Source: a virus. Taken from it: a DNA stretch of 26,126 nucleotides. Made by a program: the position numbers and the translations under genes. The DNA lies in IMG/VR virus record IMGVR_UViG_3300023084_000110, positions 1 to 26,126 of that record, one strand, 5' to 3'. Below are positions 4,647 to 19,371 of the stretch, piece after piece. The notes beneath the pieces are model-generated. The model made no database searches. It was not told the origin of the DNA and worked only from the letters and a program-made list of their open reading frames with translations. Numbering within the stretch: the first letter of the stretch is position 1; each line of letters starts with the position of its first letter.

Positions 4647-4647
4647 G

Positions 4648-5232
4648 TTAGCCTAATGTTAATGTATGATAGATTTCGTCCCAATTCTTATAGACTGGAA
4701 GTTTGGTATAATGCATATTATGACCATGTTCCATAATAATAGAGTTAAGACCAAGCCGATCCCCAAGTTCAGCATTCTCGATCTTATCTTCGACCCATAG
4801 TAAACCGCTGTCACGATATGGTTCAAGAACCTCGTCCTTATCTGCACCAGTATCAGCAAAGATAAAACGTTCAAAAGCAGTAGGACCGAAGAGCTTCCGA
4901 GTATTATCAATCCGAAGCTGTTGAGCAGCGGGATCTAATGACAGGGAAGTGATCATATGAAAAACGTATCCATGCTTCCGATGGAGAAGATCAATGTAGT
5001 ACATAGCATCCCGAAGTGGAGGAAGGAATCCAATAGCAGCAGATTCATTAAAGGTTCTAACGACTAATTTTTTAGTCTGATTGTCTAAACCATAACGGTC
5101 ACCCATGTCGTATGCATCAGGATCTGCTAAGGTTTCATACCCTTTAGTTTTCATCCAAACGTTAAAAGCATACTCCCAATTCATAAGTACGCCGTCGCAG
5201 TCGGTTAGTATTACGTTACTCATATATTTCAT
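4648..5232 (-). CDS. HAD-superfamily 5'(3')-deoxyribonucleotidase-like phosphatase
   Basis: This 194-aa protein contains HAD motif I LTDCDGVL (residues 9-16, the catalytic Asp-x-Asp being D11 and D13), motif II in MITSLS, and motif III/IV in LLWVEDKIENAELG. This is the NT5C-type arrangement with a helical cap between motifs I and II. Members hydrolyse nucleoside monophosphates, and phages are thought to use them in nucleotide salvage; a sugar-phosphate substrate is possible given the downstream glycan genes. The start at 5232 is set by an excellent Shine-Dalgarno sequence, AAGGAG, 8 bases upstream, directly behind a predicted promoter. It is the first gene of the run that continues through the glycosyltransferases to the window edge. 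Confidence 0.72.
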   Translation of the reverse strand: MKYMSNVILTDCDGVLMNWEYAFNVWMKTKGYETLADPDAYDMGDRYGLDNQTKKLVVRTFNESAAIGFLPPLRDAMYYIDLLHRKHGYVFHMITSLSLDPAAQQLRIDNTRKLFGPTAFERFIFADTGADKDEVLEPYRDSGLLWVEDKIENAELGDRLGLNSIIMEHGHNMHYTKLPVYKNWDEIYHTLTLG

Positions 5233-5255
5233 ATTGTATATCTCCTTATACTACT

Positions 5256-5284
5256 AATATAAGGGTTCTAACCTCATTTGTAAA
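5256..5284 (-). promoter_or_regulatory. Early-type promoter P1 for the HAD/glycan operon
   Basis: On the minus strand, TTTACA (5284-5279) preceded by a G-run is followed after exactly 17 bp by TATATT (5261-5256). Transcription should begin near 5249, giving a leader of about 17 nt that holds little more than the Shine-Dalgarno sequence of the 5232 gene. The G-run abuts the TAA of the upstream gene at 5291. The same GGGGGTTTAC element recurs at four more minus-strand places and one plus-strand place in the window. T4 early promoters also carry GTTTAC at -35 (recalled family knowledge). Confidence 0.75.
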
Positions 5285-5290
5285 CCCCCC

Positions 5291-5509
5291 TTAGGAGATT
5301 TTTTTCCAATAATTTGATATTTTTTCTGCTGCTGCAAGAGCCTCTGGGTACCTTTTCCTGAACCGATTGTTAGTACAACCATGCTTTAAAAAATACTTTA
5401 TACTTTCAATATCGCTCTCATAGTTAGGAAGGTTAAATGATTGTCTGTAAGAAACAGCTTCCTCGAATCGGCTTCTTTGGTTTAGGATCTCGAAAAACTG
5501 ACTATCCAT
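5291..5509 (-). CDS. Small conserved-looking phage protein, 72 aa, unknown function
   Basis: I do not recognise this protein. The start MDSQFFEILN at 5509 is preferred because its ATG overlaps the stop of the upstream 61-aa gene by 8 bases (ATGGATAG), the same coupling geometry seen elsewhere in this genome. A longer in-frame reading to 5566 would start inside the neighbour with a Met-rich, unlikely N-terminus. The protein is mostly helical by composition, with aromatic and charged residues (FEEAVSYRQSF, NRFRKRYPEALAAAEK) and a single Cys. It is the last gene before promoter P1, and its TAA stop directly joins the promoter's G-run. Confidence 0.6.
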   Translation of the reverse strand: MDSQFFEILNQRSRFEEAVSYRQSFNLPNYESDIESIKYFLKHGCTNNRFRKRYPEALAAAEKISNYWKKIS

Positions 5510-5687
5510 TAAGCTGTTGTTCTTCGTATCCCTCATAGTCATATTCATCATCATACATAACCTCATTCAACATTTGTTTGGTATCACCATCTAATACTTC
5601 ACGGATCCGAAGATCCTTTTCTAGGTGTTCGTACTTGTGCTTTCCGCGTTTCTTATTGCGGGGATCAAATCTAGAATATTTTGCCAT
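5502..5687 (-). CDS. Small charged phage protein, 61 aa, unknown function
   Basis: This 61-aa protein is strongly bipolar. The N-terminus is basic (residues 1-20: MAKYSRFDPRNKKRGKHKYE) and the C-terminus is acidic (DDEYDYEGYEE, about residues 46-56). A similar basic N-terminus is familiar from small proteins next to phoH in marine T4-like phages (recollection only). A clear Shine-Dalgarno sequence, AGAGGAG, precedes the ATG by a few bases, and it begins 10 bases after the phoH stop. It has no predicted enzyme motif; a nucleic-acid or protein-adaptor role would fit its charge pattern but is only an inference. Confidence 0.65.
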   Translation of the reverse strand: MAKYSRFDPRNKKRGKHKYEHLEKDLRIREVLDGDTKQMLNEVMYDDEYDYEGYEEQQLNG

Positions 5688-5696
5688 TTTCTCCTC

Positions 5697-6392
5697 TTAA
5701 TATCCTAACATTTCTTTCGTCATAATATAATCCCGGACAAAGTCGGATCTTACAATATCTTCCCATCCGAAATTAACTATCGTAAAGTTCCTCAGTTGTT
5801 CTACAATCTGTAAGAACTTAACAATTCCTTGTTTGTCGTCATCATATTTAAAATCACTTTGTTTATAATCACCACAAAATATCACTTTACTATTTCTACC
5901 AACTCGTGTTATTACCGAATCAAGTTCATGAAAATTTAAATTCTGCATCTCATCAACTACTATGATGGAATTATCAAATGTAGCACCTCTAATAAACGAG
6001 GTTGACTCAAACCGGATTTGGCCTGCTGTAACCATTTTTTGGTATGAGCTCTTATCCCCAAATAGCTCTGTACATATAGATTTATAAGGTGATGTGAACG
6101 CTTCTTCTTTCGCTTCTTTGTCGCCTGGTAAGAATCCCATTTCTCTAGTAGGTACCATAGATCTAACTATAATAAGCCTATCCCATTCGGTATCTCTTTC
6201 TAGGACATCCTCAAGCGCTAAATAAAGAGCCATAAAGGTTTTACCTGTTCCAGCTGTTCCAGTTAAAACTAAGTTATCACCTTCGTCCCATGATTGGTAT
6301 GCTTTTTCTTGATTTAAGGTTAGTGGGTCAAATTGGAGAAGATCATCCAGCTTAACCGTCATACTATTATTCTGACTTTTGGTTCTTTTCAT
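5697..6392 (-). CDS. phoH: PhoH-like ATPase
   Basis: This 231-aa P-loop ATPase is of the PhoH family, widespread in marine phages. Walker A is GTAGTGKT (residues 45-52), Walker B is IIVVDEMQN (143-151), and the family segments RSMVPTREMGFLPGD (77-91), SFIRGATFDN (132-141) and FCGDYKQSD (172-180) are all present. PhoH proteins bind and hydrolyse ATP and are proposed to act in RNA metabolism; despite the name, a link to phosphate starvation is not established for the phage copies. The ATG shares its A with the stop of the preceding gene (TAATG), and there is no Shine-Dalgarno sequence close to it, so translation probably depends on coupling. The length is normal for phage PhoH. Confidence 0.93.
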   Translation of the reverse strand: MKRTKSQNNSMTVKLDDLLQFDPLTLNQEKAYQSWDEGDNLVLTGTAGTGKTFMALYLALEDVLERDTEWDRLIIVRSMVPTREMGFLPGDKEAKEEAFTSPYKSICTELFGDKSSYQKMVTAGQIRFESTSFIRGATFDNSIIVVDEMQNLNFHELDSVITRVGRNSKVIFCGDYKQSDFKYDDDKQGIVKFLQIVEQLRNFTIVNFGWEDIVRSDFVRDYIMTKEMLGY

Positions 6393-6619
6393 TAGTTATT
6401 AATCGTACTACCTGGATGATCTTTTTTTACTTTACTTAAAAAGTTATTCCATTCTCCACCTGCCTTGCGAAGAGTGCTGGTGGTAGAAGACACAAATTTA
6501 GCAGTAGAAAGCTTTTGCTTATACTTACCAGTTTTCAATAGCTCTTCGCGTTCGGATAGCGAAAGAACCATTTCTTCTTCTTGGTTAGTTTCTAGATTAA
6601 TCATTGTATATGATGGCAT
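6392..6619 (-). CDS. FmdB-related small T4-like phage protein lacking the zinc ribbon (75 aa)
   Basis: The N-terminus MPSYTMINLETNQEEEMVLS followed by an SEREELLKTG helix and the C-terminal KVKKDHPGSTINN resembles a short conserved protein of cyanophages. Those are often annotated as FmdB-like, with an MPTY.....TGEE N-terminus, a ...ELLKxN helix and a STINxF-type tail. Unlike true FmdB regulators there is no Cys pair, so it cannot form the zinc ribbon. The function is unknown. The start codon lacks a nearby Shine-Dalgarno sequence; the purine-rich GGAGAGG lies on the far side of an 18-nt hairpin (6630-6647). Its stop overlaps the phoH start (TAATG), so it probably controls phoH translation by coupling. 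Confidence 0.65.
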   Translation of the reverse strand: MPSYTMINLETNQEEEMVLSLSEREELLKTGKYKQKLSTAKFVSSTTSTLRKAGGEWNNFLSKVKKDHPGSTINN

Positions 6620-6629
6620 GTTTGTAAGA

Positions 6630-6647
6630 GGCTAGCTTGCGCTAGCC
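6630..6647 (-). promoter_or_regulatory. Intercistronic hairpin that could loop out to bring a distant Shine-Dalgarno to the start codon
   Basis: On the minus strand, GGCTAGC (6647-6641), a GCAA tetraloop of GNRA type (6640-6637) and GCTAGCC (6636-6630) form a perfect 7-bp stem. GGAGAGG lies immediately 5' of the stem, and the ATG at 6619 is 10 nt 3' of it. Unfolded, the GAGG-to-ATG spacing is 28 nt, too long for initiation. Folded, it becomes about 10 nt. There is no U-tract, so it is not a typical intrinsic terminator. Confidence 0.6.
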
Positions 6648-6654
6648 CCTCTCC

Positions 6655-6807
6655 CTAGCTTGAAGTTACCAATTTAGATTTTAAAAAATCTCGTTTACGT
6701 TTCAACTTTGATAATAGATCTAAATCCCCTCTTGTCTTAATCTTATCTATATAATTATTAAGTTCAGTTAGGTCTTTAGTCAATCTGTCAAGTTGTACTT
6801 TACTCAT
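6655..6807 (-). CDS. 50-aa basic coiled-coil protein, unknown function
   Basis: This short gene has a strong Shine-Dalgarno sequence (AAGGAG, 5 bases before the ATG) and fits exactly between its neighbours. The protein begins MSKVQLDRLTKDLTELNNYI and continues with an almost purely helical, Leu/Lys/Asp-rich sequence (DLLSKLKRKRDFLKSKL, about residues 30-46). It has heptad-like leucine spacing and no Pro or Cys. It is likely a small coiled-coil or adaptor protein; I do not recognise a family. It ends 35 bases before the next ATG, with the hairpin at 6630-6647 in between. Confidence 0.65.
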   Translation of the reverse strand: MSKVQLDRLTKDLTELNNYIDKIKTRGDLDLLSKLKRKRDFLKSKLVTSS

Positions 6808-6823
6808 AAGTTCTCCTTATTTG

Positions 6824-7258
6824 TTAACGTAAAATTAAATCGGGAAATGCCTCCTGTACTAGTTTTTTTGTGACACCTTTAATGGGAAGCTTCTTGTTGA
6901 TCATGCCAGCAAGGAGCTCTGCATCTCGAGGGTGCACGGTCTCGAGAATGTCTAAAAACATTTTCTCTCTTTTAATGGTGTTCATCTTTTCACCTGGTCC
7001 GCCTTTAATAAAATATGCCAGCTTTTTATTATGCTGTGACCAGTTAGATGGATGAGAACTTGGATCCGCAGGCTCATACGGAACTGGACCCTTGGGTAAG
7101 ATCCATTGGACCACATCATCGAAAGTACCGCGGAGGAGATCTTTCAATGCCCAGTTATTATTCTGTGCCTGTAGGAGTTTAATCTTATCAGCCTTTGTTT
7201 TGGCTTCTGATACTTTTTCTAATATTTCAAAAGTATAATGTGTTGTTTTGTTGACCAT
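6824..7258 (-). CDS. Conserved T4-like marine phage protein (DUF6433-like), unknown function
   Basis: This 144-aa protein has the layout of a hypothetical family common in T4-like cyanophages that I recall as DUF6433. It has an N-terminal helix with EKVSEAKTKADKIKLLQ (residues 14-30), an LLRGTFDD(V)VQW segment, an LPKG..PY.P loop, a KLAYFIKGG strand (79-87), IKREKMFLDILE (95-106), and a C-terminal KLVQEAFPDLI. The middle and C-terminal parts are helical and look like a protein-protein scaffold; no catalytic motif is seen. Its ATG shares a base with the RNase H stop (TAATG), with AGGA nine bases upstream. It is co-transcribed with the replication-associated genes here, so a replication or repair accessory role is possible but unproven. 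Confidence 0.6.
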   Translation of the reverse strand: MVNKTTHYTFEILEKVSEAKTKADKIKLLQAQNNNWALKDLLRGTFDDVVQWILPKGPVPYEPADPSSHPSNWSQHNKKLAYFIKGGPGEKMNTIKREKMFLDILETVHPRDAELLAGMINKKLPIKGVTKKLVQEAFPDLILR

Positions 7259-8112
7259 TAAATAAATTCCTGAATTACATCAATCAAGTTTCTGCAGTTT
7301 TTCGCGATCAGATATGGGAAAACCTTACCTTTGTTTTCATAGGGATCCTGGGTTTCAAAACTATTTATAATAGCTTTACGTACATTTTCAGGGGTAGACG
7401 GATTGACCAGGTCAATCATCATTTTGTTACGTTGGTAGTTACGATACACCGCTTCACCTAAAGCTTTAGGATCTTCTAGTAGTGATTCTTTCTTTTTCTT
7501 GGATAGAATGTTTTGACGCTTACCCTCTACTAGGAATGTATCGTCATCGGAAAGAACATTTGGTACACCATCACCAGTGTCACCAGTTAGAATATGCTCT
7601 GCTAGATATGTACGTGGGTGTTCCTCCTTTACGAGCTTTTTAAGCATAGGAGAATACTGTGAAACGTTATCGAATATTTGTAGCTGTCTAAAATCTTTGT
7701 CTGCGGATACAATCATTACCTCTTCATAGTTGCCAAACTTTTGTGTGTGGTGTACTATTTCAGCAATGGCATCATCTGCTTCGCATCCCCATTCGTGTAT
7801 AACTTTATATGGAAATTCGTCTTTTAGTTCTTGGAGAACCATATTAATAATACGGAAGGCTTCATCCCAATCGATCTTAGATTCATCACGGCTTGTTTTA
7901 CGTTTACCTTTGTATTGTGGATAAACATCTTTACGCCAGTTGCCACCAGCATCTGCTACGATTACTACTTCGCCATATTGCTCTTTGAATTTTTTCCGAT
8001 ACATACGGATGGAGTTAAGGATCATGTGACGGATAAGGTTTTCGTCTCCATGATGTGCGTGTCCCATAGCAACTGGTGCGATGCTGATCCCACTATAGTC
8101 AATTAAAATCAT
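7258..8112 (-). CDS. rnh: RNase H / 5'-3' exonuclease, T4 Rnh (FEN-1 family)
   Basis: This 284-aa protein matches the T4 RNase H family, the FEN-1-like nuclease that removes RNA primers from Okazaki fragments. Metal ligands are visible in order: D5 (ILIDYSG), D54 (IVADAGGNWRK, with the conserved R60), the EADD cluster (111-114), SADKDFRQL (136-144), and the GDTGDGVPN segment (177-185), which is the helix-hairpin-like DNA-binding turn with two acidic ligands. The length is close to that of T4 Rnh (about 305). The start at 8112 has only a modest GGAAG upstream, and it lies behind promoter P2. It begins the unit that runs through PhoH to 5291. Confidence 0.9.
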   Translation of the reverse strand: MILIDYSGISIAPVAMGHAHHGDENLIRHMILNSIRMYRKKFKEQYGEVVIVADAGGNWRKDVYPQYKGKRKTSRDESKIDWDEAFRIINMVLQELKDEFPYKVIHEWGCEADDAIAEIVHHTQKFGNYEEVMIVSADKDFRQLQIFDNVSQYSPMLKKLVKEEHPRTYLAEHILTGDTGDGVPNVLSDDDTFLVEGKRQNILSKKKKESLLEDPKALGEAVYRNYQRNKMMIDLVNPSTPENVRKAIINSFETQDPYENKGKVFPYLIAKNCRNLIDVIQEFI

Positions 8113-8144
8113 TGGTCTTCCATTTTTTAATCATGTTATATAGT

Positions 8145-8173
8145 ATACTAAACTATTTAGCAGGGTTTGTAAA
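8145..8173 (-). promoter_or_regulatory. Early-type promoter P2 for rnh-phoH unit
   Basis: On the minus strand, GGGGG then TTTACA (8173-8168) is followed after 17 bp by TAGTAT (8150-8145); a better -10-like TATACT sits three bases further on. The G-run again joins directly to the TAA stop of the upstream gene (8179-8181), as at P1. The predicted start near 8138 leaves a leader of about 25 nt. The -35 region is palindromic (GGGTTTRYAAACCC), unlike the other copies. Confidence 0.68.
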
Positions 8174-8178
8174 CCCCC

Positions 8179-8427
8179 TTAATCGTAATGACCGCCAAGA
8201 ACAGCTACATGTTTAACGTCTTCTTGTAGCATTTCTGCTTCTCTGGCCTTCCATGCCTGTTCGAAACCACCTTCATGGAGATAGTTTTCGTTGTTACCCC
8301 ATAATCGTTTCGTATATGAATGATAGGTTTTTTCTACATCTTCATCGGACCAAGATTTATCGATAAGTTTTCCTTTGATAATCCAATTTAATCGATTTGC
8401 TTCTTTACGGACGAATGGTGAGCACAT
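8179..8427 (-). CDS. 82-aa hypothetical phage protein
   Basis: I do not recognise this protein. The start MCSPFVRKEANRL at 8427 is chosen because AAGGAG lies about seven bases upstream; a longer in-frame reading to 8463 has no ribosome-binding site. The sequence is rich in Trp and charged residues (NWIIKGKLIDKSWSDEDVEKTYH, KRLWGNN), suggesting a small globular helical protein. It ends HVAVLGGHYD. It follows the GIY-YIG-like gene by 60 bases and is the last gene before promoter P2, so it probably belongs to the nrdJ unit. Confidence 0.6.
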   Translation of the reverse strand: MCSPFVRKEANRLNWIIKGKLIDKSWSDEDVEKTYHSYTKRLWGNNENYLHEGGFEQAWKAREAEMLQEDVKHVAVLGGHYD

Positions 8428-8487
8428 AGAAAACTCCTTTTGGTTATCTATGAAATATTGCAAAAATGGTAACGCATGTCATAAAAA

Positions 8488-8904
8488 TTATTTCAGACTT
8501 TGTATATGTGCTCTATGAATTCTACAATTAATAATACCATTATAGTATTCATCATCCAATAATACATTTCGATCGAACTGTTCCTTTGCTTCTAGGTACC
8601 CCATTTCGCCCTTGGACTTACAGAAATATAATATCTCTCTGTAAAAGTTTTCTTCACCATGCTCAACAAGTAGCTGCTTCACAAGTTCACTGGACCCATA
8701 GTACTTACGCCAATCGGATTCAACAATCTTTCTTCTTTTTTGTTTTTTGCCTTTTAGAGGAGGAAGGGTTTTACGTGACCAAAATAATTTTTTACCAACG
8801 TATTTTTTGTTAGTAGATTGGTCAGTAATAATATAGACAAATCCCTTCCACTCTTTTAGGTCTTCTTCTGTAGGATTATATTCTTTCCCTTGATAATGCC
8901 ACAT
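8488..8904 (-). CDS. GIY-YIG-like nuclease (putative homing-endonuclease-type)
   Basis: This 138-aa protein has the GIY-YIG fold pattern in degenerate form: GFVYIIT (residues 21-27) for GIY and KKYVGKK (33-39) for YIG. A basic patch follows (SRK and KGKKQKRRK, 43-59), then KYYGSSELVKQLLVEHGEENF (68-87), and LEAKEQF with a candidate catalytic Glu near 105. Proteins of this shape are common in T4-like marine phages and are annotated as putative endonucleases. The N-terminal WHYQGKEYNPTEEDLKEW segment is shared by that subgroup (recollection). It may be a domesticated nuclease, since it lies inside an operon rather than in an intron. The ATG shares a base with the zinc-ribbon stop (TAATG). Confidence 0.65.
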   Translation of the reverse strand: MWHYQGKEYNPTEEDLKEWKGFVYIITDQSTNKKYVGKKLFWSRKTLPPLKGKKQKRRKIVESDWRKYYGSSELVKQLLVEHGEENFYREILYFCKSKGEMGYLEAKEQFDRNVLLDDEYYNGIINCRIHRAHIQSLK

Positions 8905-9044
8905 TACTCATCAATTTCTTCGAAGTCTGCCGGAGATCCACACAGTGGGCAGAACTCCGGTTTTTCCTCGACGTCCTCTGAGGGTAAGAATTCCCCAGAG
9001 TTGTCGCAGACGTCACATTCGAACCAGTATTTTGTTTCTATCAT
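8904..9044 (-). CDS. 46-aa zinc-ribbon protein (two CxxC knuckles)
   Basis: This small protein has two Cys pairs, CDVC at residues 10-13 and CPLC at 32-35, separated by an acidic linker, with a Trp-Phe just before the first knuckle. This is the geometry of a single rubredoxin-like or zinc-ribbon domain. The remainder is very acidic (ending ADFEEIDE). AAGG lies a few bases before the ATG. It sits directly downstream of the class II ribonucleotide reductase (8-base gap), so it could be an electron-transfer or regulatory partner of that enzyme, or a transcription-modulating ribbon. The latter is equally possible because such ribbons are common in phages. The stop overlaps the next ATG (TAATG). 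Confidence 0.7.
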   Translation of the reverse strand: MIETKYWFECDVCDNSGEFLPSEDVEEKPEFCPLCGSPADFEEIDE

Positions 9045-9052
9045 TTTTTGCC

Positions 9053-11281
9053 TTAGAATGCGATTTCACAGGCACCACCTTGACATGCTGTTGCGCCCAT
9101 CGTATCAATATCAGTAAACCTCTTTTCACTCAGCTGGGTCACAAAATCTACTGCGGCAAAGTTCTGTTGGATCTTAGTCCATTTATGTAATAGGAATACG
9201 TCCTTCAAACAATACTCCGTTTCTTTCATATCACCCATAAAATAGTTATCAGCAAACTTCTTGAAACGACGAATCCATTCCTTATTAATATCAGAAACCT
9301 CTCCACGATATTGTTCATCCATTTGAGCAACCGAACAAGCGTCCCATAGATCTCTGAAACCGGATTTACGTGTATCAACGATAAGACCAGAAGCAAAGAG
9401 AGCTGCTTTACCGTATTTATCGACGATTTGGTCTTCAGTCATGATTTCTGTCATAGGTGCTTGAGCAAAGTCCTTATCACCAGAACCAGCCAAGAAACTA
9501 ATACCAGCAAAGCTGTGGCGGTTGTCATATACATAATCCTCTACCTGTCCCCACATGTGAGGTTGAACTGTTACAGTATTTGAAACGTTATGTCGCACGC
9601 GCGAGTCCGCGCATCTGTCTGGATTAGTACCTTCCTCGACCCAATTCTGTTGAACCATTTTTACTTTTTCTAATAGAGCTGTACCATATAGGTCTTCTTT
9701 ATATAAAGATCCTTCTGGTGAGATAACTGGGAAAGCTACACAGTAATCTGTATTAGATGCAGACCATACTGATTCCTCGACCATATATGGATTTGAAGTA
9801 GCGATTAGTTGTGCAACCTCTGATTCTTTATTTAACTGGACGTGACGTAGATACCTGGCAGAATGCTCAGCATGAATACCACTAGCTGTTTGAAGTAGTA
9901 CTGACGCATTGCCAGATGGTTTAACACATGTTGTCCGTGCTGCCGGATTGATACCGATAAGGGCAGAAACTTCTTCATTAACCGATTTAACAATGCGAGC
10001 GCCTTCTCTTTGAACCTGGTCATCTAACAGAATGTCCGGGTTATTCATCCACCCAGTAATTGATACGCCTAACAGAGCTTCTCGATCAAATATTTTTTTA
10101 CTGGTGGGACCTAGATATTTAAAGTCTGTATATCCTGCTTGGAGTGTACCCATAATGGATGCTGCCCGGCAGGCTTTAAAGAACTCAGAGGTGCTCGTAC
10201 ATTTACCGCCATTGATTTCTGTCAGGTTACAACCTTGCCAACCAGACTCTCCATCGATTTGTGGATACATACCAATCTCAACACATGGATTCGTAGTAAA
10301 GTCCTTATCGTCAACAAAATAAAATCCAGGCTCACCAAATTCTTTAATTGATTGCATTATAGTTCTAAATTGATCCCGAGAGATCTCGTCACGAACAATC
10401 ACTGCAGAGTTATTACTACGTCCACGTTGTGGGTTATCAACAAACCAATTACCAGTTTTAGCATTAATCATTTCTTCATCATCTGCACTAAACAAACAAA
10501 TGGTTGCGGAGCGGCGTACACCGCCGGCTAGCACGGCGTCAGCCGCATGCATTGCAATGTCATACACTTCAATAGGCTTCAATCTGTCACGCCCAGATAA
10601 TACGATTCCTTGAAGCATATGCTCAATTTTATCTAGCGCACGACGAAGTGGTTCTGGACCTGGTGCTTTAAATCCGCCAGAGATTTTTGAACCTTTTGGA
10701 CGGATGTTTTGCAGATCGAAGTAAACCTTGCGACCTTCGAAGTCAGGATGCGTACCACCGCCGACAAAAAAAGAAGACATAAGGACTGAAAGAGAATCCG
10801 CCCAGCCTTCAATGGAATCTTCAATCACATAACCCTTGGCTTGTTTCTTACGCTCTGCAACATTAGGGAGTTTTGCAACATGATGATTTTGTACACTGAA
10901 GCCAGCACCTGCGCCACATAGTAAAATGTAAAAGAGCTCACCAAAAAAGGCCGCACGGTCCGCGTAGGAGCTCGTACAGTTATACATTCTCATCTGGTGC
11001 TTACGTAACTGCTCTCCGCCAAATTGCAGCGCTCTCTGAGCGCCTAGTGCATACTGTAGCTTATACAGGGATTCTGCCTCATCAATATACTGGGCAAGCT
11101 CTGGGGTCATTTTGTCAGCATAATATTCACGATGCATATCCATGACACGGGCTACAGATTCCTCCCATGTTTCATATCTATCTTTATCCTCACTCCATCT
11201 GCTGTATCCTTCATAAAATTTAGTTTCTGACATTAACTTCCTAGTATTTTTATCTGGGTTATTAGGAATGAGTTTGAGCAT
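9053..11281 (-). CDS. nrdJ: Class II (adenosylcobalamin-dependent) ribonucleoside-triphosphate reductase
   Basis: This 742-aa protein resembles the monomeric class II RNR of the Lactobacillus leichmannii RTPR type, which makes deoxyribonucleotides using adenosylcobalamin as radical source. Active-site features are C102 in MYNCTSS (one of the redox Cys pair), NPCVEI (331-336, with C333 as the thiyl radical Cys and E335), C351 in GCNLTEIN (the second redox Cys) and KPSGNASVLL in the phosphate-binding region. A C-terminal redox pair lies at C733 and C738 in the CQGGAC tail. It needs no beta subunit, and none is nearby. AAAGGA lies eight bases before the ATG. T4 and most cyanophages carry class I NrdAB instead. 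The product supports phage DNA synthesis and implies that B12 is available in the host. Confidence 0.93.
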   Translation of the reverse strand: MLKLIPNNPDKNTRKLMSETKFYEGYSRWSEDKDRYETWEESVARVMDMHREYYADKMTPELAQYIDEAESLYKLQYALGAQRALQFGGEQLRKHQMRMYNCTSSYADRAAFFGELFYILLCGAGAGFSVQNHHVAKLPNVAERKKQAKGYVIEDSIEGWADSLSVLMSSFFVGGGTHPDFEGRKVYFDLQNIRPKGSKISGGFKAPGPEPLRRALDKIEHMLQGIVLSGRDRLKPIEVYDIAMHAADAVLAGGVRRSATICLFSADDEEMINAKTGNWFVDNPQRGRSNNSAVIVRDEISRDQFRTIMQSIKEFGEPGFYFVDDKDFTTNPCVEIGMYPQIDGESGWQGCNLTEINGGKCTSTSEFFKACRAASIMGTLQAGYTDFKYLGPTSKKIFDREALLGVSITGWMNNPDILLDDQVQREGARIVKSVNEEVSALIGINPAARTTCVKPSGNASVLLQTASGIHAEHSARYLRHVQLNKESEVAQLIATSNPYMVEESVWSASNTDYCVAFPVISPEGSLYKEDLYGTALLEKVKMVQQNWVEEGTNPDRCADSRVRHNVSNTVTVQPHMWGQVEDYVYDNRHSFAGISFLAGSGDKDFAQAPMTEIMTEDQIVDKYGKAALFASGLIVDTRKSGFRDLWDACSVAQMDEQYRGEVSDINKEWIRRFKKFADNYFMGDMKETEYCLKDVFLLHKWTKIQQNFAAVDFVTQLSEKRFTDIDTMGATACQGGACEIAF

Positions 11282-11298
11282 CGATAAAATCCTTTCTG

Positions 11299-11317
11299 GC
11301 CATAAACGACATATGGC
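11299..11317 (-). promoter_or_regulatory. Hairpin in the nrdJ leader
   Basis: On the minus strand, GCCATA (11317-11312) and TATGGC (11304-11299) form a 6-bp stem with a 7-nt loop, ending just upstream of the AAAGGA Shine-Dalgarno sequence of nrdJ. The leader from the predicted start near 11332 is only about 50 nt, too short for a cobalamin riboswitch. The hairpin may position or protect the ribosome-binding site. Confidence 0.4.
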
Positions 11318-11338
11318 AGTTGTTACTGACTTAAATAC

Positions 11339-11367
11339 ATTATATATGATTATTGTGATTTAGAAAA
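11339..11367 (-). promoter_or_regulatory. Promoter P3 for nrdJ, with perfect -10
   Basis: On the minus strand, GGGG then TTTTCT (11367-11362) is followed after exactly 17 bp by a consensus TATAAT (11344-11339). The -35 hexamer is weaker than in the other copies, but the G-run and the spacing are kept. Transcription should start near 11332. Its -35 lies back to back with that of a plus-strand promoter (11384-11389), so the two are divergent. The whole 134-bp gap 11282-11415 is occupied by these promoters and the nrdJ leader; I see no gene in it. Confidence 0.68.
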
Positions 11368-11383
11368 CCCCTAAAAATGGGGG

Positions 11384-11411
11384 TTTACAGAATTATTTTT
11401 TCTGATATAAT
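11384..11411 (+). promoter_or_regulatory. Divergent plus-strand promoter reading antisense into the spanin genes
   Basis: On the plus strand, GGGGG followed by TTTACA (11384-11389), a 16-bp spacer, and a perfect TATAAT (11406-11411) give the best sigma-70-like match among the family in this window. Initiation near 11418 would make RNA complementary to the 3' end of the outer-spanin gene and beyond. A hairpin at 11427-11451 (two 5-bp stem segments around a GAT loop, followed by TTTAT) begins about nine bases into that RNA and might terminate or stabilise it. No plausible plus-strand gene follows. Confidence 0.6.
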
Positions 11412-11415
11412 TAAT

Positions 11416-11799
11416 CTACTGATTTTCCGAAGTGGATGGATCATCCTTCGGTTTATCCGGTGTAAGCGCTTCTTCATAGTATGCAATTATTGCTTGTTGG
11501 TCTTTCACATACCGGCGAAGATCTGCTATACCAATGGCTAGATTCTCATAACCCTTAGGGGTAATAGTAAACATAACTACGTTTCCAGTCTTCGATTGGA
11601 TCTCGGTTAGTTTCTCTTCTAGATTTTCTTCTGTAATTACAAACCAATCGACTGGAGGGAATTCTACAGCTTTAGGCCGTTCTTGGATAGGAATATTTTG
11701 TTCCTGGTATTCAGTTGTTACTACTACTTCCGGTTCCGGTGTTCTCCCCAGACACCCCATCAGTAGTATCGGGCTTGTCAGAAGGAGGAGTAGTTTCAT
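11416..11799 (-). CDS. Outer-membrane spanin lipoprotein (o-spanin, Rz1-like), 127 aa
   Basis: From the start at 11799 the protein begins with a lipoprotein signal, MKLLLLLTSPILLMGC, with lipobox L-M-G-C and the lipidated Cys at residue 16. A short Pro-rich stretch follows (RTPEPE...IPIQERPKAVEFPPVDW), then a helical part (ENLEEKLTEIQ; IADLRRYVKDQQAIIAYYEE) and a Pro/Ser tail. Spanins join inner and outer membranes in the last step of lysis of Gram-negative hosts. The upstream in-frame ATG at 11862 would bury the signal peptide. The first 89 bp overlap the 3' end of the i-spanin gene in another frame, the classic partly overlapping spanin arrangement. It is the last gene of the late block. 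Confidence 0.78.
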   Translation of the reverse strand: MKLLLLLTSPILLMGCLGRTPEPEVVVTTEYQEQNIPIQERPKAVEFPPVDWFVITEENLEEKLTEIQSKTGNVVMFTITPKGYENLAIGIADLRRYVKDQQAIIAYYEEALTPDKPKDDPSTSENQ

Positions 11800-12160
11800 C
11801 TTGGATCCGCCCAATAAGTTTGTTAACGGCGTTGTTAACTCTGTCTTCAAGTCCTTGTGCATTCGTTAATGCCTCCATAGTCAAATCGATTTTTGCAAAA
11901 ACACCTCTTAGCTTATCAAGATGCTCCTGGGATTGTTGTAACCTTTTAGTAAGGTCTTTATTTAATTGTTCGTTCTTTTTCGCATCGGCTGCCATTTTCT
12001 CTACAGTGTTCTGTAATGTTTCGGCAGCGGATTTTAGTTTAACATTGTTTTCTCTTAAAGTACTTATGGTAGCTTCAGACCAAAGATAATACTGGTATCC
12101 ACCGTATCCAACACTGGACAATAAGCCTGCAACAATGATAATTAAATATAGCTTAGCCAT
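11711..12160 (-). CDS. Inner-membrane spanin (i-spanin, Rz-like), 149 aa
   Basis: The protein has an N-terminal membrane anchor (about residues 4-26, KLYLIIIVAGLLSSVG.... YYLW) and then a long charged coiled coil (about 33-115, TLRENNVKLKSAAETLQ ... NKLIGRIQDE). It ends in a disordered Pro/Thr/Ser/Gly tail. This is the N-in, periplasm-facing topology of Rz-type i-spanins. Its disordered 3' part is exactly where the lipoprotein partner's signal sequence is encoded in another frame (11711-11799). The ATG overlaps the upstream gene's stop by 8 bases (ATGGCTAA). No annotated-type endolysin is visible in this window, so lysis genes are probably dispersed, as in other T4-like phages. Confidence 0.75.
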   Translation of the reverse strand: MAKLYLIIIVAGLLSSVGYGGYQYYLWSEATISTLRENNVKLKSAAETLQNTVEKMAADAKKNEQLNKDLTKRLQQSQEHLDKLRGVFAKIDLTMEALTNAQGLEDRVNNAVNKLIGRIQDETTPPSDKPDTTDGVSGENTGTGSSSNN

Positions 12161-12557
12161 TGTATTTACTAAACCTTTTCAGCAAAACTGGCGGACGATT
12201 TTTCTTACGTCTGCGATCAGTCATATTTATTGGTATACCTAGACGACGTCTTAGAATGTGTTTCGGTAGCATTGGACCCATATCTCTAGTGTCATGTGGA
12301 ATTCCAGCATCAGCTGTGGTAGTCATTTCTTCTTGGACGTCCTCAGGTAAACGGGATTTGGCATTCTCTTTACCATGGACTGTATCGTGCCAGTGCCAGT
12401 CGTGACCACTGTAGACATTCTTCTTTTTAACTTCGATTCTATACTCACCTGTGTGACGATCATTGTGGTCGTAGTTTTTACGAACTCTCCAAGTCTCACC
12501 TTTATGTTGGGTATGGATCTCTCCGTCAGGTCCGCCTCTGGTCCATTTCCGTTTCAT
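12153..12557 (-). CDS. 134-aa basic hypothetical phage protein
   Basis: I do not recognise this protein. It is rich in His, Arg, Lys and Trp, with a KRKWTRGGPDGEIHTQHKGE N-terminus, a GETWRVRKNYD...TGEYRIEVKKK beta-hairpin-like region, a DWHWHD cluster (about residues 53-58), and a GIPHDTRDMGPMLPKH segment. The C-terminus is highly basic (RRRKKNRPP). The His/Trp cluster might bind metal or DNA, but no known site is matched. It lies in the late block between a conserved virion-region gene and the spanins and overlaps both neighbours (ATGA upstream, 8 bases downstream), so a late role, structural or lysis-linked, is likely. Confidence 0.6.
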   Translation of the reverse strand: MKRKWTRGGPDGEIHTQHKGETWRVRKNYDHNDRHTGEYRIEVKKKNVYSGHDWHWHDTVHGKENAKSRLPEDVQEEMTTTADAGIPHDTRDMGPMLPKHILRRRLGIPINMTDRRRKKNRPPVLLKRFSKYNG

Positions 12558-13153
12558 CTAGTAATCTCCGGTATAGAAATATATATGGGTTTATTAGTCC
12601 TAATATGTGTGACTTCATATATGTTAATACCAAACATTTCACCGACAGGATAGCAGTCTTCTCCAACCCTGATCTTATCACGAACGTTAACTATTTCCTC
12701 TAAAGAATCATTTAGAAGTTTTTCATTCATGACCTTATATACACCGGGGGAAAGCCTTTGGTCCTCTAGAACAAACCACTCGGTCTGCTCTTCTAAAAAG
12801 TCTAGGGAATCTATACCAAATTCCTTTAGACCCTTTAGGATAGTTCCTTCATTAACAGAATACTTATCCTTCAACAAATATAATGCTGCAGCATAAGATG
12901 CAATCTTAGTTTTACCAAATGGGAGTTTATTCAGTAATCTTTTGACATTAAACACAAGCCGGATGAACGGCGTATAGTAGTTTTTATACGCGTCTCTATC
13001 CTCTAGACTATTCGTGTTAAACGATTTAAGTCTTTTACCGTCTTTATCTATAATACCGTATTCATATGCCTTAGTCTTTTCCCATGGCGTTGTAAGAAGC
13101 CTAAGGAATCTAAGTGTATAAATTATATCACCGGTAGATTTAAATATACCCAT
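12554..13153 (-). CDS. 199-aa conserved T4-like phage protein, unknown function
   Basis: The N-terminal half (IIYTLRFLRLLTTPWEKTKAYEYGIIDKDGKRLK, split by a hydrophobic helix around residues 10-20) and the following ...YYTPFIRLVFNVKRLLNKLPFGKTKIASYAAALYLLKDK helix resemble a conserved hypothetical of marine T4-like phages, recalled only by pattern. The C-terminal third (VYKVMNEKLLNDSLEEIVNVRDKI, then GEMFGINIYEVTHIRTNKPIYIS) looks like a small beta-domain of the type found at the end of packaged or regulatory phage proteins. No catalytic residues are apparent. It starts one base inside the next upstream gene's stop and ends with an ATGA overlap. I assign no function. Confidence 0.6.
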   Translation of the reverse strand: MGIFKSTGDIIYTLRFLRLLTTPWEKTKAYEYGIIDKDGKRLKSFNTNSLEDRDAYKNYYTPFIRLVFNVKRLLNKLPFGKTKIASYAAALYLLKDKYSVNEGTILKGLKEFGIDSLDFLEEQTEWFVLEDQRLSPGVYKVMNEKLLNDSLEEIVNVRDKIRVGEDCYPVGEMFGINIYEVTHIRTNKPIYISIPEITR

Positions 13154-13521
13154 TATATTTTTCTTAGCCTTTCTACCACAGTCTTATCCATCGGAATCTC
13201 TGTATATTGATCATTCTTAATATGACGAAGGAATATCAAAAACGGTTTCAACATAGGCCAATAGTCTGGCTTAATTTGAAATTCTAACATTTTTAAACTA
13301 GGCTCTATATCAAACACATTAAATATAACAATAAGATGGTTCAGTATCAATCTTTCAGAAAGCTGACCATCATTAGCATACCTGTAGAATAGCCTTTTTA
13401 AATATTTAAATCTTTTCAGGTCATCATAAAATTCTTCTGCATCTATAACATTCGGTTTATAATAATTTCGAGCTGCGTATAACAAAAAGTTTTCATCAGT
13501 TAGAGTTTCAAATAATTTCAT
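13153..13521 (-). CDS. 122-aa conserved T4-like phage protein (DUF7207-like), unknown function
   Basis: The sequence MKLFETLTDENFLLYAARNY continues with a DAEEFYDDLKRFKYLKRLFYRY helix and LSERLILNHLIVIFNVFDIEPSLKML. It ends in a WPMLKPFLIFLRHI segment. This order is well conserved in T4-like cyanophages (recollection; I believe it is classed as DUF7207). It is almost entirely helical and lacks Cys and catalytic motifs. AAGGGC precedes the ATG. Its constant position beside virion genes suggests a virion-assembly or DNA-packaging-related function, but there is no direct evidence in the sequence. Confidence 0.65.
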   Translation of the reverse strand: MKLFETLTDENFLLYAARNYYKPNVIDAEEFYDDLKRFKYLKRLFYRYANDGQLSERLILNHLIVIFNVFDIEPSLKMLEFQIKPDYWPMLKPFLIFLRHIKNDQYTEIPMDKTVVERLRKI

Positions 13522-13533
13522 CTTAGGCCCTTA

Positions 13534-13917
13534 TTAACCTAGGATACCTCTCAAAGTCTCAATTAGTTTCGCTTTCGATTTTCTACGATCTAGTTCTACA
13601 CCATTTTCTCTGCCGAGAGATTCCAATTCTGCTTTAGTCATTTCTTCTAGACTATCTATAACACCATCATCATTCAGGTCTGCGATAACGTCATCGTTCT
13701 CTTCTTCGACGAATCCGGCTGCAGCCATTGCTGCTTGGATTTTACCCTCTTGATTCATATCTTGAATTTCTTCAAACGAAGGCATTCCATAGAATTCGTC
13801 GATCTGGGCTTGATTAAATCTAGATGAAACTAGAAGTTCATTTGTGTTAGGATCAACCCAGCCCTTCGATAAGACTGGGACTGCACCTCTGCACCAATTA
13901 GGTGGTTTTATAGCCAT
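13534..13917 (-). CDS. Virion-region protein with EF-hand and SAP/HeH-like motif, 127 aa
   Basis: Residues 80-91 form a canonical EF-hand calcium loop (D-L-N-D-D-G-V-I-D-S-L-E, with ligands at positions 1, 3, 5, 9 and 12). Residues 93-126 (MTKAELESLGREN...KAKLIETLRGIL) match the two-helix SAP/HeH/LEM-like motif often found at the ends of phage proteins. The N-terminal 45 residues (PPNWCRGAVPVLSKGWVDPNTNELLVSS, then QAQIDEFYG) resemble a conserved T4-like cyanophage N-terminus. The two small motifs abut each other. Calcium binding in seawater and nucleic-acid or protein contact are both plausible. The function is unproven. AGGAG sits seven bases before the ATG. Confidence 0.65.
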   Translation of the reverse strand: MAIKPPNWCRGAVPVLSKGWVDPNTNELLVSSRFNQAQIDEFYGMPSFEEIQDMNQEGKIQAAMAAAGFVEEENDDVIADLNDDGVIDSLEEMTKAELESLGRENGVELDRRKSKAKLIETLRGILG

Positions 13918-13926
13918 TATATTCTC

Positions 13927-14550
13927 CTACTCTTTAGTTACCGCTCCAGCTACAGGATTAATAATTTTCTTATCACCTGCCTTATTATCGTTGGAACGTG
14001 GTTTAGCATTCGGCCCGGCTCTATTTGCTTTAGAAGCATCGTCATGACCTAGCTTATCATAGTTGCTTTGCTTGCTGCTATCATCTACAGCATTATCAGC
14101 TCTCATATCCTCAGCACCTTTGTTACCTTTTTCGGTGTCGCCCCACTCTTGAGACTTAGCTGCTTTTTTATAGTGTGCATCGCGTTTCTCAAGAATACGG
14201 GCATATATGGTTGGGATAGTAGATTCTGCAGCCATTCCAGCTTCTGCATTAGGATCCTTTTTCTCTTTCTTATCCTTTTTAGGATTCATTATCACTTCTT
14301 CCTCTTCACCCACAGGTTTTTTGCTTTCCTTTTGATCGGCGATAGCTTTCGCTGTATCTTTTTTCATAGTCACTGGGTGTTTCTTACCATTAAAGGTAAA
14401 GTGGGATTGTCCAGCTTTATGCGCTGCAGCAGCTGCACCCATATAGGCATTACGTTCTGCTGTTGGAATCTCTTCCGGAATTAAAAATTTTGATTCATTA
14501 ACGCTGACTTCAGAATATCTTTCAGCCAACTTTTTGATCCATTCGCTCAT
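13927..14550 (-). CDS. 207-aa low-complexity, charged late protein (possible internal virion protein)
   Basis: The protein opens MSEWIKKLAERYSEVSVNES and then has an Ala/Lys-rich middle (YMGAAAAAHKAGQSHFTFNGKKHPV, residues 36-60) and a Lys/Asp/Glu stretch (NPKKDKKEKKDPN). A C-terminal half follows, rich in Asp, Lys, Asn and Ala with almost no hydrophobic core. The segment ARILEKRDAHYKKAAKSQEW recalls modules found in the packaged low-complexity proteins of cyanophages. It is probably disordered. AAGGAG lies six bases before the ATG, one of the strongest in the block, implying high expression. An internal capsid protein is my best guess; a scaffold-type role is also possible. Confidence 0.55.
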   Translation of the reverse strand: MSEWIKKLAERYSEVSVNESKFLIPEEIPTAERNAYMGAAAAAHKAGQSHFTFNGKKHPVTMKKDTAKAIADQKESKKPVGEEEEVIMNPKKDKKEKKDPNAEAGMAAESTIPTIYARILEKRDAHYKKAAKSQEWGDTEKGNKGAEDMRADNAVDDSSKQSNYDKLGHDDASKANRAGPNAKPRSNDNKAGDKKIINPVAGAVTKE

Positions 14551-14563
14551 GATTGTTTTCTCC

Positions 14564-14842
14564 TTACATCCAAAGTTGAGCTGCGATTGATCCTGAAATA
14601 GCTATTAGTGCTATCCAGAATAGTTTATTTATTGTATGTACCGTACGACAGTTGTCTTCAACTTTTTTTTCTATTGCGTCAAGTTTTTCTGAAAACTTGT
14701 TCATACGTTCCCATGATCGTTCACGATATTCATTATAAGCATCCATCTTCTCTTCAAAGCGAGCAATAGAGACTATTACATCACCAAGCTTGTCGAGCTT
14801 TTCTTCGATCCGATCTAGTCTGTTATTTGTACTCTCTGGCAT
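14564..14842 (-). CDS. 92-aa coiled-coil protein with C-terminal transmembrane helix (holin/XhlA-like topology)
   Basis: From the ATG at 14842 (AGGA eight bases upstream) the protein is MPESTNNRLDRIEEKLDKLG..., an uninterrupted charged coiled coil to about residue 70. A single membrane helix follows (LFWIALIAISGSIAAQLW, 74-91) at the very C-terminus. This tail-anchored topology is that of XhlA-type hemolysin/holin accessory proteins found beside lysis genes. A longer in-frame reading to 15034 lies inside the neighbouring DUF6321-like gene and is rejected. It begins 10 bases after that gene's stop. A membrane role in lysis is likely, but a structural coiled-coil protein is also possible. Confidence 0.65.
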   Translation of the reverse strand: MPESTNNRLDRIEEKLDKLGDVIVSIARFEEKMDAYNEYRERSWERMNKFSEKLDAIEKKVEDNCRTVHTINKLFWIALIAISGSIAAQLWM

Positions 14843-14852
14843 ATCTATAATC

Positions 14853-15161
14853 CTACCACTTTTCCTTATCAGCCCAATAAGCGGCTGACATTTTGCCTTT
14901 AGCAATGTTCTTAGCGTGTCTAGCCTTAAACGACTTACGTCTAGCTTTTTGACGATCCGACTCACCTTTCTTAGGTGCTCCTGCAGTAGTAACACCAGCT
15001 TGTCCAAATCGAATTGTTTTAACTTTATCGCCATCCTTTGCTACCACAATGTGACTCTTTGTTGGGTGACCGGGAGTACGTTTAGGTTTATTGAAACCTT
15101 TTACCCCCGCTCTAGCAATCCTAGGATCTTTTTCTTCGCAGAAAATCTTAAAGGTAATCAT
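14853..15161 (-). CDS. DUF6321-like basic phage protein, 102 aa
   Basis: The C-terminal two thirds (KTIRFGQAGV, then KARRKSFKARHAKN and GKMSAAYWADKEKW) are a motif set I associate with DUF6321, common in cyanophage and other phage virion clusters. The N-terminus MITFKIFCEEKDPRIARAGV resembles the M-x-F-x-x-(F/Y)-(L/I/C)-E pattern shared by other late proteins here. It is strongly basic, so contact with packaged DNA is plausible. The ATG overlaps the stop of the 851-aa gene (ATGA). The domain name is from memory. Confidence 0.68.
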   Translation of the reverse strand: MITFKIFCEEKDPRIARAGVKGFNKPKRTPGHPTKSHIVVAKDGDKVKTIRFGQAGVTTAGAPKKGESDRQKARRKSFKARHAKNIAKGKMSAAYWADKEKW

Positions 15162-17713
15162 TTCTTATTCCTATTTTTAGAATTATAAGGATGATCTGGA
15201 CCTAACATAGAATCTACTGCTGCCTGTCTATCTTGGGGCCTACGCTTTTCCCAGTTGTTAGTCGTAGCGTCTTTTTTTCCCGACATAGAACCTGTTTTTA
15301 CTACGCCAGATTTTTTAATCTTATTAATAAGCTGCATGTTTCTCATAGAGGCGGATTCGGTCTTAGGGGCTTCTGCAGATTTTTTAGCGGCCATTTTTGC
15401 CAGCCGTTTCGCAAGATTTTTTGTTTTTATAACATTACCAAACTGATCTTTTCTTTCAGGCTCGGGCTTCTTCCATCCGGTATCTGTTTTCCATTCACCT
15501 TTTTCTTCCCTAATCGAAGCTTTATAAAGTTCTAATCCCTTCGCATACTTAGGATTCTTCATCATTTTTTTAGACTCGGGATTATCAGGATTTTGGTGAG
15601 CCATACGTACAGTTGGTTCATCTAAATTATGCTTTTTCATATGATCCTTATATACACCAAACTTTTTAGAGTCCACACTTGGCCCGAATCTATTTCTCAT
15701 TGTGGTCATTGTGTGGCGTGGTCCGGCCTCAGATACGGTTTCTTCTTTTCTTAGCATTTTAAAAGTTTTGTTAACAGCTTTATCATCAGCCCTTTTTAGA
15801 CCAGTTTCACGGTTAGACATCTTCTTTACAGCTTTATCAAACCCAGGCTTATCGCCACGTACGGTACTGGCAAGAGCAGAGTTTTTAGCACGGTTTAAAC
15901 CAGACTTAGCTTTATCTTTGTAACTTCTCATTGCCTGTGGTGTATCAAGAACTTCATCAACTTGTACAGAATCTTTGATATTGTTTTTCTTTTTGTACTT
16001 GTCGTATTGACCGTCTGGATTGATACCACGCTTACGAGCTTTTGCATCAGCCTTATCAGTGTCCATCATATGCTTAGCATAACCCATTTTAGCCATTTTT
16101 GGATCTTGCTTTTTATGCTCTGCATCTTTCTGATCTTGCCGCTTCTTACGAATTGCCTGCATGTTCTTCATGGTCATTAGACGATCTTTAGATGTGTACT
16201 TACCACCAAACATACCAGACTTATCAGCATACTTAGCAGATGTGCCAACTGCTTCGTCAAGTTCTACTTCTTCTTTTTTGAGGCCGGATAATTTCATACG
16301 AGCATCATAGTGTTTAGCTCTATCCATACTACGATTTAGACCCATTTTATGAAGTTTATCAGTTGCCTTATTTCTATCAATTTCTGTTTTGGCTGTTGCT
16401 GTCCGTGCTTTATTTCTAGCTTGTTTTTCTCTTTCACGTCTAAGGTCGGAAGCTAAGTCCTCATTCGTTTGGGCATCGTCGTCATTCATCATATAACGAT
16501 GTGCAGTGTTTAAATAGTCTGCGGCCTTAGTGATTTTATTTTGTACCCACTCTGGTAAGTTTTGATCGTCAGAGAACATCTTAATCATGTGCTCTGCATC
16601 TGTTAGAATACCTTTTAGCTGGGTCTTAGCCATTGCACCTTCGTTATCATATTCGCCAGGATCTTTCTCTTCCATTGTTGACCGAGGTCTTTTATTCATA
16701 ACTGTTTGAGTACGCTTTGTTACTTTATCAAGTTTTTTATCAATGTGTTTCATAGTCGGACTAGTTATACCAAGACGGCCAAACGCATCAGCTTCTGTGT
16801 AAGACTCTTTTTTAATCCAGTTCTTTCCTTCTGGATTATATGCATCGTACATGCAGCTTTCACTCTTTGGTTTACCAAATTCGTCACCACAGTGTTTGCA
16901 GCACATACCGTTCATGTCTTTTTCTTCTTTGACTGCCTTACGGGCTTTATTGAACATAGCATCGTCACCAGTAATCATGCCAATTAATTCTCCAAGCATA
17001 TCGAATAGAATGCCCCGTTCTTTTTGTGGAACAGCTTTACCATCCTTCATAAGTGTTAAGGCACGAACGATCTTCGTCATATCCTTTTTATCCATAAGAC
17101 CTAGGCGAACAAGCTGCTTAACCTTTTCCATTTCCGGATCTTGTGCTTCTAGAATCTCTGTCCCTTCTTTTACTGACTCGTTATATTGATTGGCCCTCTG
17201 AGTTGCTGCATGTGCCGCTCGGCTTCCTCCGCCACTAGCTACCTCAGGACGAAGATGTTTTGGCTTAGAAAGATAATTATCGTAATATGATGCGGCTTTC
17301 ATATGGGCTCTTGCAGCAGCTTTGTGTACTGATGCAGCCATTCTATCACCATCTTTATGTGCTTTTTCAGCTTGTCGCTCGTGATGATTAGCTTGATCTT
17401 CATGTGCATCAGCGCGGCTCTCAATGCTACCTTTTAAATATGCTCCTTCTGCAACTCTTTTGGCTGTGGCGGTTGCAATGGCCATTTTCTTTTTCATATC
17501 CATACCTGGGTTATCCCTTTCCATAGCCTTTGCAATCTCCTCCCGCTTCTTTTTCTCAGCAGGGGTCAAAGTCTTTTCATTGGTCTCTTCCTTTTTCACA
17601 GGAACCATCCGGATTTTAATTTTACCATCCTTATCAGTATATTTCTCAGGCTTCTTATCAGCCGATTGCGTGGTCCTATCCCAGTTTTCTTTCATTTCTT
17701 TTATGGTTTTCAT
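15158..17713 (-). CDS. 851-aa modular Lys/Ala/Met-rich virion protein (LPEWVQ-module)
   Basis: This large, highly charged protein appears to be a string of modules. An Ala/His/Lys-rich helix lies at about residues 95-145 (repeated A-H-K-A pattern). A helical ITGDDAMF(N)KARKAVKEE unit lies near 220-263, and a Cys cluster (CCKHCG, 271-276, plus C287) might bind zinc. A module ending LPEWVQNKITKAADYLNTAH (386-405) is very frequent in cyanophage and pelagiphage structural proteins (recollection). A long Lys/Asp/Met-rich disordered tail follows. Sites of the form ILE/A (187-190), LDE/A (485-488) and VAE/G (88-90) resemble T4 prohead-protease cleavage points. It is probably an internal or core protein, possibly processed. 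Confidence 0.6.
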   Translation of the reverse strand: MKTIKEMKENWDRTTQSADKKPEKYTDKDGKIKIRMVPVKKEETNEKTLTPAEKKKREEIAKAMERDNPGMDMKKKMAIATATAKRVAEGAYLKGSIESRADAHEDQANHHERQAEKAHKDGDRMAASVHKAAARAHMKAASYYDNYLSKPKHLRPEVASGGGSRAAHAATQRANQYNESVKEGTEILEAQDPEMEKVKQLVRLGLMDKKDMTKIVRALTLMKDGKAVPQKERGILFDMLGELIGMITGDDAMFNKARKAVKEEKDMNGMCCKHCGDEFGKPKSESCMYDAYNPEGKNWIKKESYTEADAFGRLGITSPTMKHIDKKLDKVTKRTQTVMNKRPRSTMEEKDPGEYDNEGAMAKTQLKGILTDAEHMIKMFSDDQNLPEWVQNKITKAADYLNTAHRYMMNDDDAQTNEDLASDLRREREKQARNKARTATAKTEIDRNKATDKLHKMGLNRSMDRAKHYDARMKLSGLKKEEVELDEAVGTSAKYADKSGMFGGKYTSKDRLMTMKNMQAIRKKRQDQKDAEHKKQDPKMAKMGYAKHMMDTDKADAKARKRGINPDGQYDKYKKKNNIKDSVQVDEVLDTPQAMRSYKDKAKSGLNRAKNSALASTVRGDKPGFDKAVKKMSNRETGLKRADDKAVNKTFKMLRKEETVSEAGPRHTMTTMRNRFGPSVDSKKFGVYKDHMKKHNLDEPTVRMAHQNPDNPESKKMMKNPKYAKGLELYKASIREEKGEWKTDTGWKKPEPERKDQFGNVIKTKNLAKRLAKMAAKKSAEAPKTESASMRNMQLINKIKKSGVVKTGSMSGKKDATTNNWEKRRPQDRQAAVDSMLGPDHPYNSKNRNKK

Positions 17714-17967
17714 TTATTTAACCTCGCTTTTTGCTTAGCCCATAGATCGGGATCGCCTTTAACTCTTGTTCTTCCACCAGTAATAAAACTATTTACTCTA
17801 GCCATTCCCCATTGTTGTGGGGTGGTACCAGGCTTGTGGCCAACCTTCCAAGCTGCTACGCCTCTGCTATAAACCTTTTTCAGGATTCCTAATGAGAATC
17901 CTGATTTCTTAGCTTTATCAGCCAGAGCTGAATCTGAACTCTCCAAGAATAATTGAAATGATTTCAT
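17710..17967 (-). CDS. DUF5824-like phage protein, 85 aa, with capsid-targeting-like N-terminus
   Basis: The segment AWKVGHKPGTTPQQWGMARV (residues 39-58) followed by NSFITGG is a recurrent phage motif that I recall as DUF5824, preceded here by a K-K-S-G-F-S-L-G-I-L-K-K-V-Y-S-R-G helix. The N-terminus MKSFQLFLES strongly resembles the T4 internal-protein capsid-targeting sequence MKTYQEFIAE as I remember it. The ATG shares a base with the upstream stop (TAATG), and the stop overlaps the 851-aa gene start (ATGA). Its function is unknown. Confidence 0.65.
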   Translation of the reverse strand: MKSFQLFLESSDSALADKAKKSGFSLGILKKVYSRGVAAWKVGHKPGTTPQQWGMARVNSFITGGRTRVKGDPDLWAKQKARLNK

Positions 17968-19370: not shown

Positions 19371-19371
19371 A

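Follow-up and report, generated by a model that had tools for sequence, protein, structure and literature searches.

The nrdJ-spanin junction

The window, by which we mean the whole stretch of 26,126 bases of viral DNA that was analysed, has all its genes on the minus strand. The gene for a class II ribonucleotide reductase, nrdJ, occupies 9053..11281 (minus strand; PHROG 367, E=1.3e-99). At higher coordinates it is followed by two lysis genes that overlap each other, the o-spanin gene (11416..11862, minus strand; PHROG 812, Rz-like spanin, 3.6e-14) and the i-spanin gene (11711..12160, minus strand; PHROG 739, Rz-like spanin, 1.3e-10). A SegE-like GIY-YIG endonuclease is encoded between nrdJ and the RNase H gene (8488-8904; Pfam PF19835, 7e-36), and an 851-aa protein encoded at 15158-17713 has no PHROG match.

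Two promoters stand back to back between nrdJ and the o-spanin gene, as the initial annotation had described, and both can be read in the sequence. The minus-strand promoter of nrdJ (11339..11367) consists of TTTTCT (11362-11367), 17 nt and TATAAT (11339-11344). On the plus strand, an extended -35 element of the T4 early type, GGGGG (11379-11383) joined to TTTACA (11384-11389), is followed after 16 nt by TATAAT (11406..11411), with a TG at 11403-11404. The spacing places the predicted transcription start 7 nt past the -10, at an A (11418). The repeat AAACCCC/GGGGTTT is simply the two -35 regions, as had been suggested, and it splits along with the promoters in relatives. There is no plus-strand gene where the plus promoter points: the o-spanin gene ends at 11416. 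We call the promoter and its start region together the cassette; the final codons of the o-spanin gene with their stop (PSTSENQ-stop), complementary to 11416-11440, overlap it. Within the start region a small inverted repeat, AATC-TACT-GATT (11413..11424, plus strand), is centred on the predicted start and recurs in relatives with the same architecture and changed arms. Further on, in the initially transcribed region, lies a G-rich box, GTGGATGG (11432..11439, plus strand), that is conserved in relatives. A hairpin reported at 11427-11451 on the plus strand is present, but it is neither exceptional against shuffled sequences (z = -0.98) nor kept in relatives.

In a scan of window positions 1-20000, the closest match to sigma-70 (11/12) is the plus-strand site. 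Promoter-like sites as a class are not enriched in the window (52 found vs. 60 expected in shuffles); with the scan at chance level, the sequence alone is no proof, and comparison with relatives must decide. The same -35, GGGGGTTTACA, also precedes minus-strand genes of the window (24460, 8177 and 5288), where the -10 boxes are weaker; the antisense copy has the best -10 within this promoter family in the window.

Conservation and wandering of the cassette

Relatives of NrdJ were collected from 80 viral-contig loci (99% to 75% identity), 76 of which had sufficient upstream sequence. Scored with the pattern TTTAC/TTGAC/TGTAC-N17-TATAAT, an antisense promoter lies upstream of nrdJ in 30 of the 76, as 11 distinct strings, compared with 0.04% of shuffles. 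The boxes and their spacing are constant in these relatives while the spacer and flanks vary freely. The plus -35 reads GTTTAC, the signature of T4 early promoters, and some of these phages have GTTGAC, which is the form preferred by RB49, RB43 and Aeh1 (PMC1524935). With a GTTTAC or GTTGAC -35 and a sigma-70 -10 TATAAT with TGn, the promoter is of the T4-like early type. As to the A-rich UP region of such promoters, upstream A+T averages 73% in the family, but the window copy has AAACCCCTAAAAATGG there. Taken together, the comparison makes it very probable that the cassette is a real, functional promoter element.

The -10 of the nrdJ promoter is kept in relatives, including those that lack the plus cassette. 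In one group (L014-17, L020-21, L036-40) the cassette is gone from upstream of nrdJ and the nrdJ promoter remains, the very pattern that the initial annotation had named as counting against its reading; some of these genomes have a copy elsewhere (L014-17, L020, L037-40). The surroundings of the cassette vary as well. In L327, L334, L354, L359 and L369 nrdJ and the cassette are separated by an inserted gene of 175-176 aa, whose start codon overlaps the -35 on the opposite strand. In L022 and L050-type relatives the antisense (o-spanin) gene ends before the cassette, and L036 keeps a similar o-spanin tail without the promoter.

Other sites were taken from pattern scans of viral contigs, among the matches listed; the broad first scans returned mostly chance matches. 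At these sites the cassette occurs next to quite different genes. It is antisense to a 133-152-aa gene between uvsW and gp55 in six loci (L214, L331, L341, L425, L436 and L460), and in L214 the identities of gp55, the late sigma factor, and of UvsW/UvsY were confirmed. Elsewhere (L419-L454) it is antisense to gp4 adjoining gp2, also where an extra gene has been inserted beside it; in L424, L440 and L445 a 179-aa gene (PHROG 8156, methyltransferase) lies between the cassette and gp4, and the cassette still adjoins gp2. The 194-aa gene beside gp4 was at one stage taken for gp53; PHROGs gives it as the DNA end protector, gp2. Sense copies occur too, in L037-L040 directly upstream of a T4-type RNase H gene and in L014-17 and L020 past that gene, at 0.7-1.6 kb. 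In the window the cassette lies 3.3 kb upstream of the RNase H gene and points away from it. The contigs examined, which are partial, carry one or two copies each, at changing positions. Contigs G001 (positions 22 and 91950) and G006 have two, and copies within one genome are alike: TTTAAAGGTATCCTTTA is present in both copies of G001. The plus promoter of the window is one copy of a recurring cassette. This wandering among unrelated genes is the main ground for rejecting a role specific to the spanin genes, which we consider unlikely to be its regulatory targets.

In 37 distinct family members, the G-rich box, GTGGATGG or a close form, is found 16-20 nt past the -10. TATAAT, the fixed 17-nt distance and the box or a close variant were part of the pattern by which the family was found, so that presence of the box is by construction, unlike its wider T- and G-rich context. 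Where the box overlaps the end of the o-spanin gene, as it does in the window, coding could explain it. L050/L054 and L214 keep it as well, although there the antisense gene stops earlier and the box is non-coding. In L379:20-110 it is changed to GTGGGCTGG, with promoter and start region kept. The first 25 nt of the predicted RNA are G-rich and C-poor, with a GC skew of +0.69 in the window's family and +0.51 in the cyanophage family considered below; further downstream the skew is -0.01 and -0.22, respectively. Promoters of sense genes of the same family, used as controls, likewise have a positive skew (+0.38).

A short stable RNA, as envisaged in the initial annotation, finds no support. Folding of the first 43 nt is on a par with shuffled sequences across 12 representatives (z from -1.2 to +1.1), relatives share neither a terminator nor a 3' end beyond the cassette, and a search of Rfam gave only sub-threshold chance matches. 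Several other readings of the start region were tried and dropped. A terminator formed by downstream pairing of GTGGATGG looks good in L014/L020 and L214 and is absent elsewhere. Small peptides starting at an ATG or GTG in the box vary in frame and length (2 to ~40 codons, read by eye). Because GGA/GGAG is not constant, the box was not taken for a CsrA-, RegB- or leader-type element. The start-site palindrome was rejected as an RNA hairpin: the predicted start falls in its middle, which makes recognition as DNA the likelier. A BLAST search with the cassette among known phages returned nothing credible.

A counterpart at gp55 in cyanophages

Known phages were examined between the gene that follows uvsW and gp55. 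An antisense early-type promoter precedes gp55 in C48C1, Melnitz (a weak match), AG-345-F15, S-RSM4, S-SKS1, MED4-213 and S-CAM1; none was found at this site in P-TIM40. In viral contigs, TTGAC[AG]-N17-TANNNT occurs antisense within 230 nt upstream of gp55 in 80/80 loci (64 distinct strings; 0.5% of shuffles), these loci being the 80 best relatives of a single protein, S-RSM4 gp55, and hence not independent. The same pattern is present on the sense strand too in 46 of the 80.

The -10 at gp55 loci is followed by AACTCTGTCAAGGGTTCAAGAG or a variant, which forms an inverted repeat over the predicted start. Its mean pairing score, a figure inflated by relatedness, is 10.1, against 5.4 for shuffles and 6.0 for a downstream segment. 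The arms covary: pair 4 is TG in 33, CG in 8, TA in 3, AT in 3 and GC in 2 of 49 sequences, and here too relatedness inflates the count. The T-G at the predicted start is invariant in all 36 aligned cyanophage sequences. S-SKS1 has a second copy, in sense upstream of a helicase gene, with 21/21 start bases identical, and copies near gp5, second or only ones in their genomes, were matched in S-RSM4 and P-TIM40 with 2 and 3 mismatches, respectively. The palindrome arms vary in concert from phage to phage and are similar in copies of one genome.

The cyanophage element and the window cassette may be of common descent or may share only an architecture. With some reserve, we suggest that they represent a family-wide, Kyanoviridae-type element for replication initiation or regulation, whose start-site palindrome, covarying between phages, would point to a dedicated phage factor. 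No description of such an antisense-promoter/palindrome element was found in the literature searched.

Possible functions of the cassette

Our best guess, held tentatively, is that the cassette is a promoter-primed origin of replication comparable to oriE, oriF and oriG of T4; below this reading come a trans-acting RNA, a border device and ordinary promoters, with a spanin-directed role last. In such an origin the strong T4-type early promoter would fire away from nrdJ and produce a non-coding RNA from about 11418. Host polymerase would make this G-rich RNA early in infection, the RNA would stay annealed to its template as an R-loop, and its 3' end would prime leading-strand DNA synthesis. A phage protein may be able to switch the promoter through the palindrome.

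In T4, oriE depends on an early promoter, and oriF and oriG on middle promoters; at oriF the origin RNA persists as an R-loop (PMC3016281). According to the T4 record, both the oriE and the oriG primer RNA run antisense to late genes, the former annotated as the complement of gene 5 and the latter as opposite gene 34. The cassettes resemble these origins: the promoter has no gene of its own (as at oriE and oriG), its predicted RNA is antisense to late genes, the gene neighbourhoods are related, and some genomes have more than one copy. UvsW, UvsY and a T4-type RNase H are encoded, which we count in favour of an origin. Most of the places taken by the cassette are within ~3.3 kb of orthologues of the genes that flank oriE, oriF or oriG (distances were read off), a nearness confounded by the fact that T4 origins, too, lie at transcription-unit borders. 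For the copies at gp4/gp2, T4 oriE is 2.5 kb away; the S-RSM4 and P-TIM40 copies are beside gp5, and oriE is inside T4 gene 5. For the copies between uvsW and gp55, T4 oriF is beside uvsW/uvsY, and for the RNase H copies T4 oriG lies 2.2 kb upstream of rnh. The helicase copy of S-SKS1 has no T4 origin counterpart. The direction of the cassette fits that of the T4 origin at rnh and uvsW. At gp4 it is opposite to the oriE primer, the apparent match in direction having been reversed once the 194-aa gene proved to be gp2 and not gp53.

The cassettes also differ from T4 origins, and so far they are known from sequence alone. They have a conserved G-rich box and a start-site palindrome, neither of which is seen at T4 origins; R-loops in T4 need neither a sequence-specific box nor a genome-specific palindrome (PMC3016281). 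The downstream A+T-rich element is weak or missing: a T4-style stretch is absent in the window's family (64% vs. 60% background), and in the cyanophages A+T is mildly raised (77% vs. 67%). A comparison of sequences showed no homology with the T4 origins. GC skew tracks the gene strand, with no switch at the cassette, and lends no support to an origin.

An origin at the cassette may mark where T4-like marine phages begin DNA copying. A single theta origin has been predicted for Syn9, vs. several in T4 (PMC2984593), and it is listed as an open question whether R-loops are used at origins beyond oriF and oriG (PMC3016281). With a small and recognisable cassette at hand in cultured cyanophages, the start of replication in T4-like marine phages can be tested directly. 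Should the cassette not be an origin, a gene-less antisense early promoter present at every one of the 80 gp55 loci examined, and missed by gene annotation, is still unexplained.

A second reading, which we think unlikely, is that of a trans-acting short RNA or leader, whose conserved 5' segment, GUGGAUGG, would pair with or bind a partner elsewhere. Its location would then be irrelevant, which would account for the wandering. Conservation of the box in sequence, beyond composition, and its retention outside coding sequence are in keeping with this, as are the shared first transcribed bases of copies in one genome (S-SKS1 and G001). Against it speak the lack of a conserved fold, of a conserved terminator or 3' end and of any Rfam match near threshold, and the fact that some copies run directly into a coding gene.

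The cassette might instead serve the border between transcription units. An early promoter set against the end of the preceding block would block read-through by collision, or would aid the divergent promoter via negative supercoiling. The antisense copies are indeed divergent to the start of the next gene (nrdJ, gp55 or gp2), and in over half of the gp55 loci the sense strand matches that promoter pattern too. Such a role, however, does not exist for the sense copies upstream of RNase H and helicase and leaves the conserved box and palindrome unexplained, and we regard it as doubtful.

It is improbable that these are ordinary early promoters sharing an ancestral start region, with the antisense copies as functionless left-overs of rearrangement. 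The same -35 family does drive sense genes in the window, and some copies are in sense. Left-overs would be expected to decay, however, whereas the antisense consensus -10 is kept at 30/76 nrdJ loci and a related promoter at all 80 gp55 loci. The cassettes share the -35/-10 signature (GTTTAC/GTTGAC-N-TATAAT) and the TG before the -10 with T4-like early promoters, but published promoters of this type nearly all precede genes, and the cassettes are largely antisense with a conserved start region.

Least probable is the cis-antisense RNA proposed in the initial annotation, which would silence or delay the overlapping spanin genes: an early-type promoter does face the lysis genes, in the required position and direction, but elsewhere this cassette faces unrelated genes in antisense or precedes RNase H in sense, so that the target differs in relatives, and at the spanins it is missing from relatives that have retained the nrdJ promoter and the reading frame of the o-spanin. 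There is a precedent for antisense RNA in CfrI of cyanophage S-PM2 (PMC2984593). Unlike the cassette of the window, for which no defined RNA end was found and whose target is not fixed, CfrI is tied to psbA and a homing endonuclease gene; the two are alike in antisense transcription in a T4-like marine phage, here predicted from sequence.
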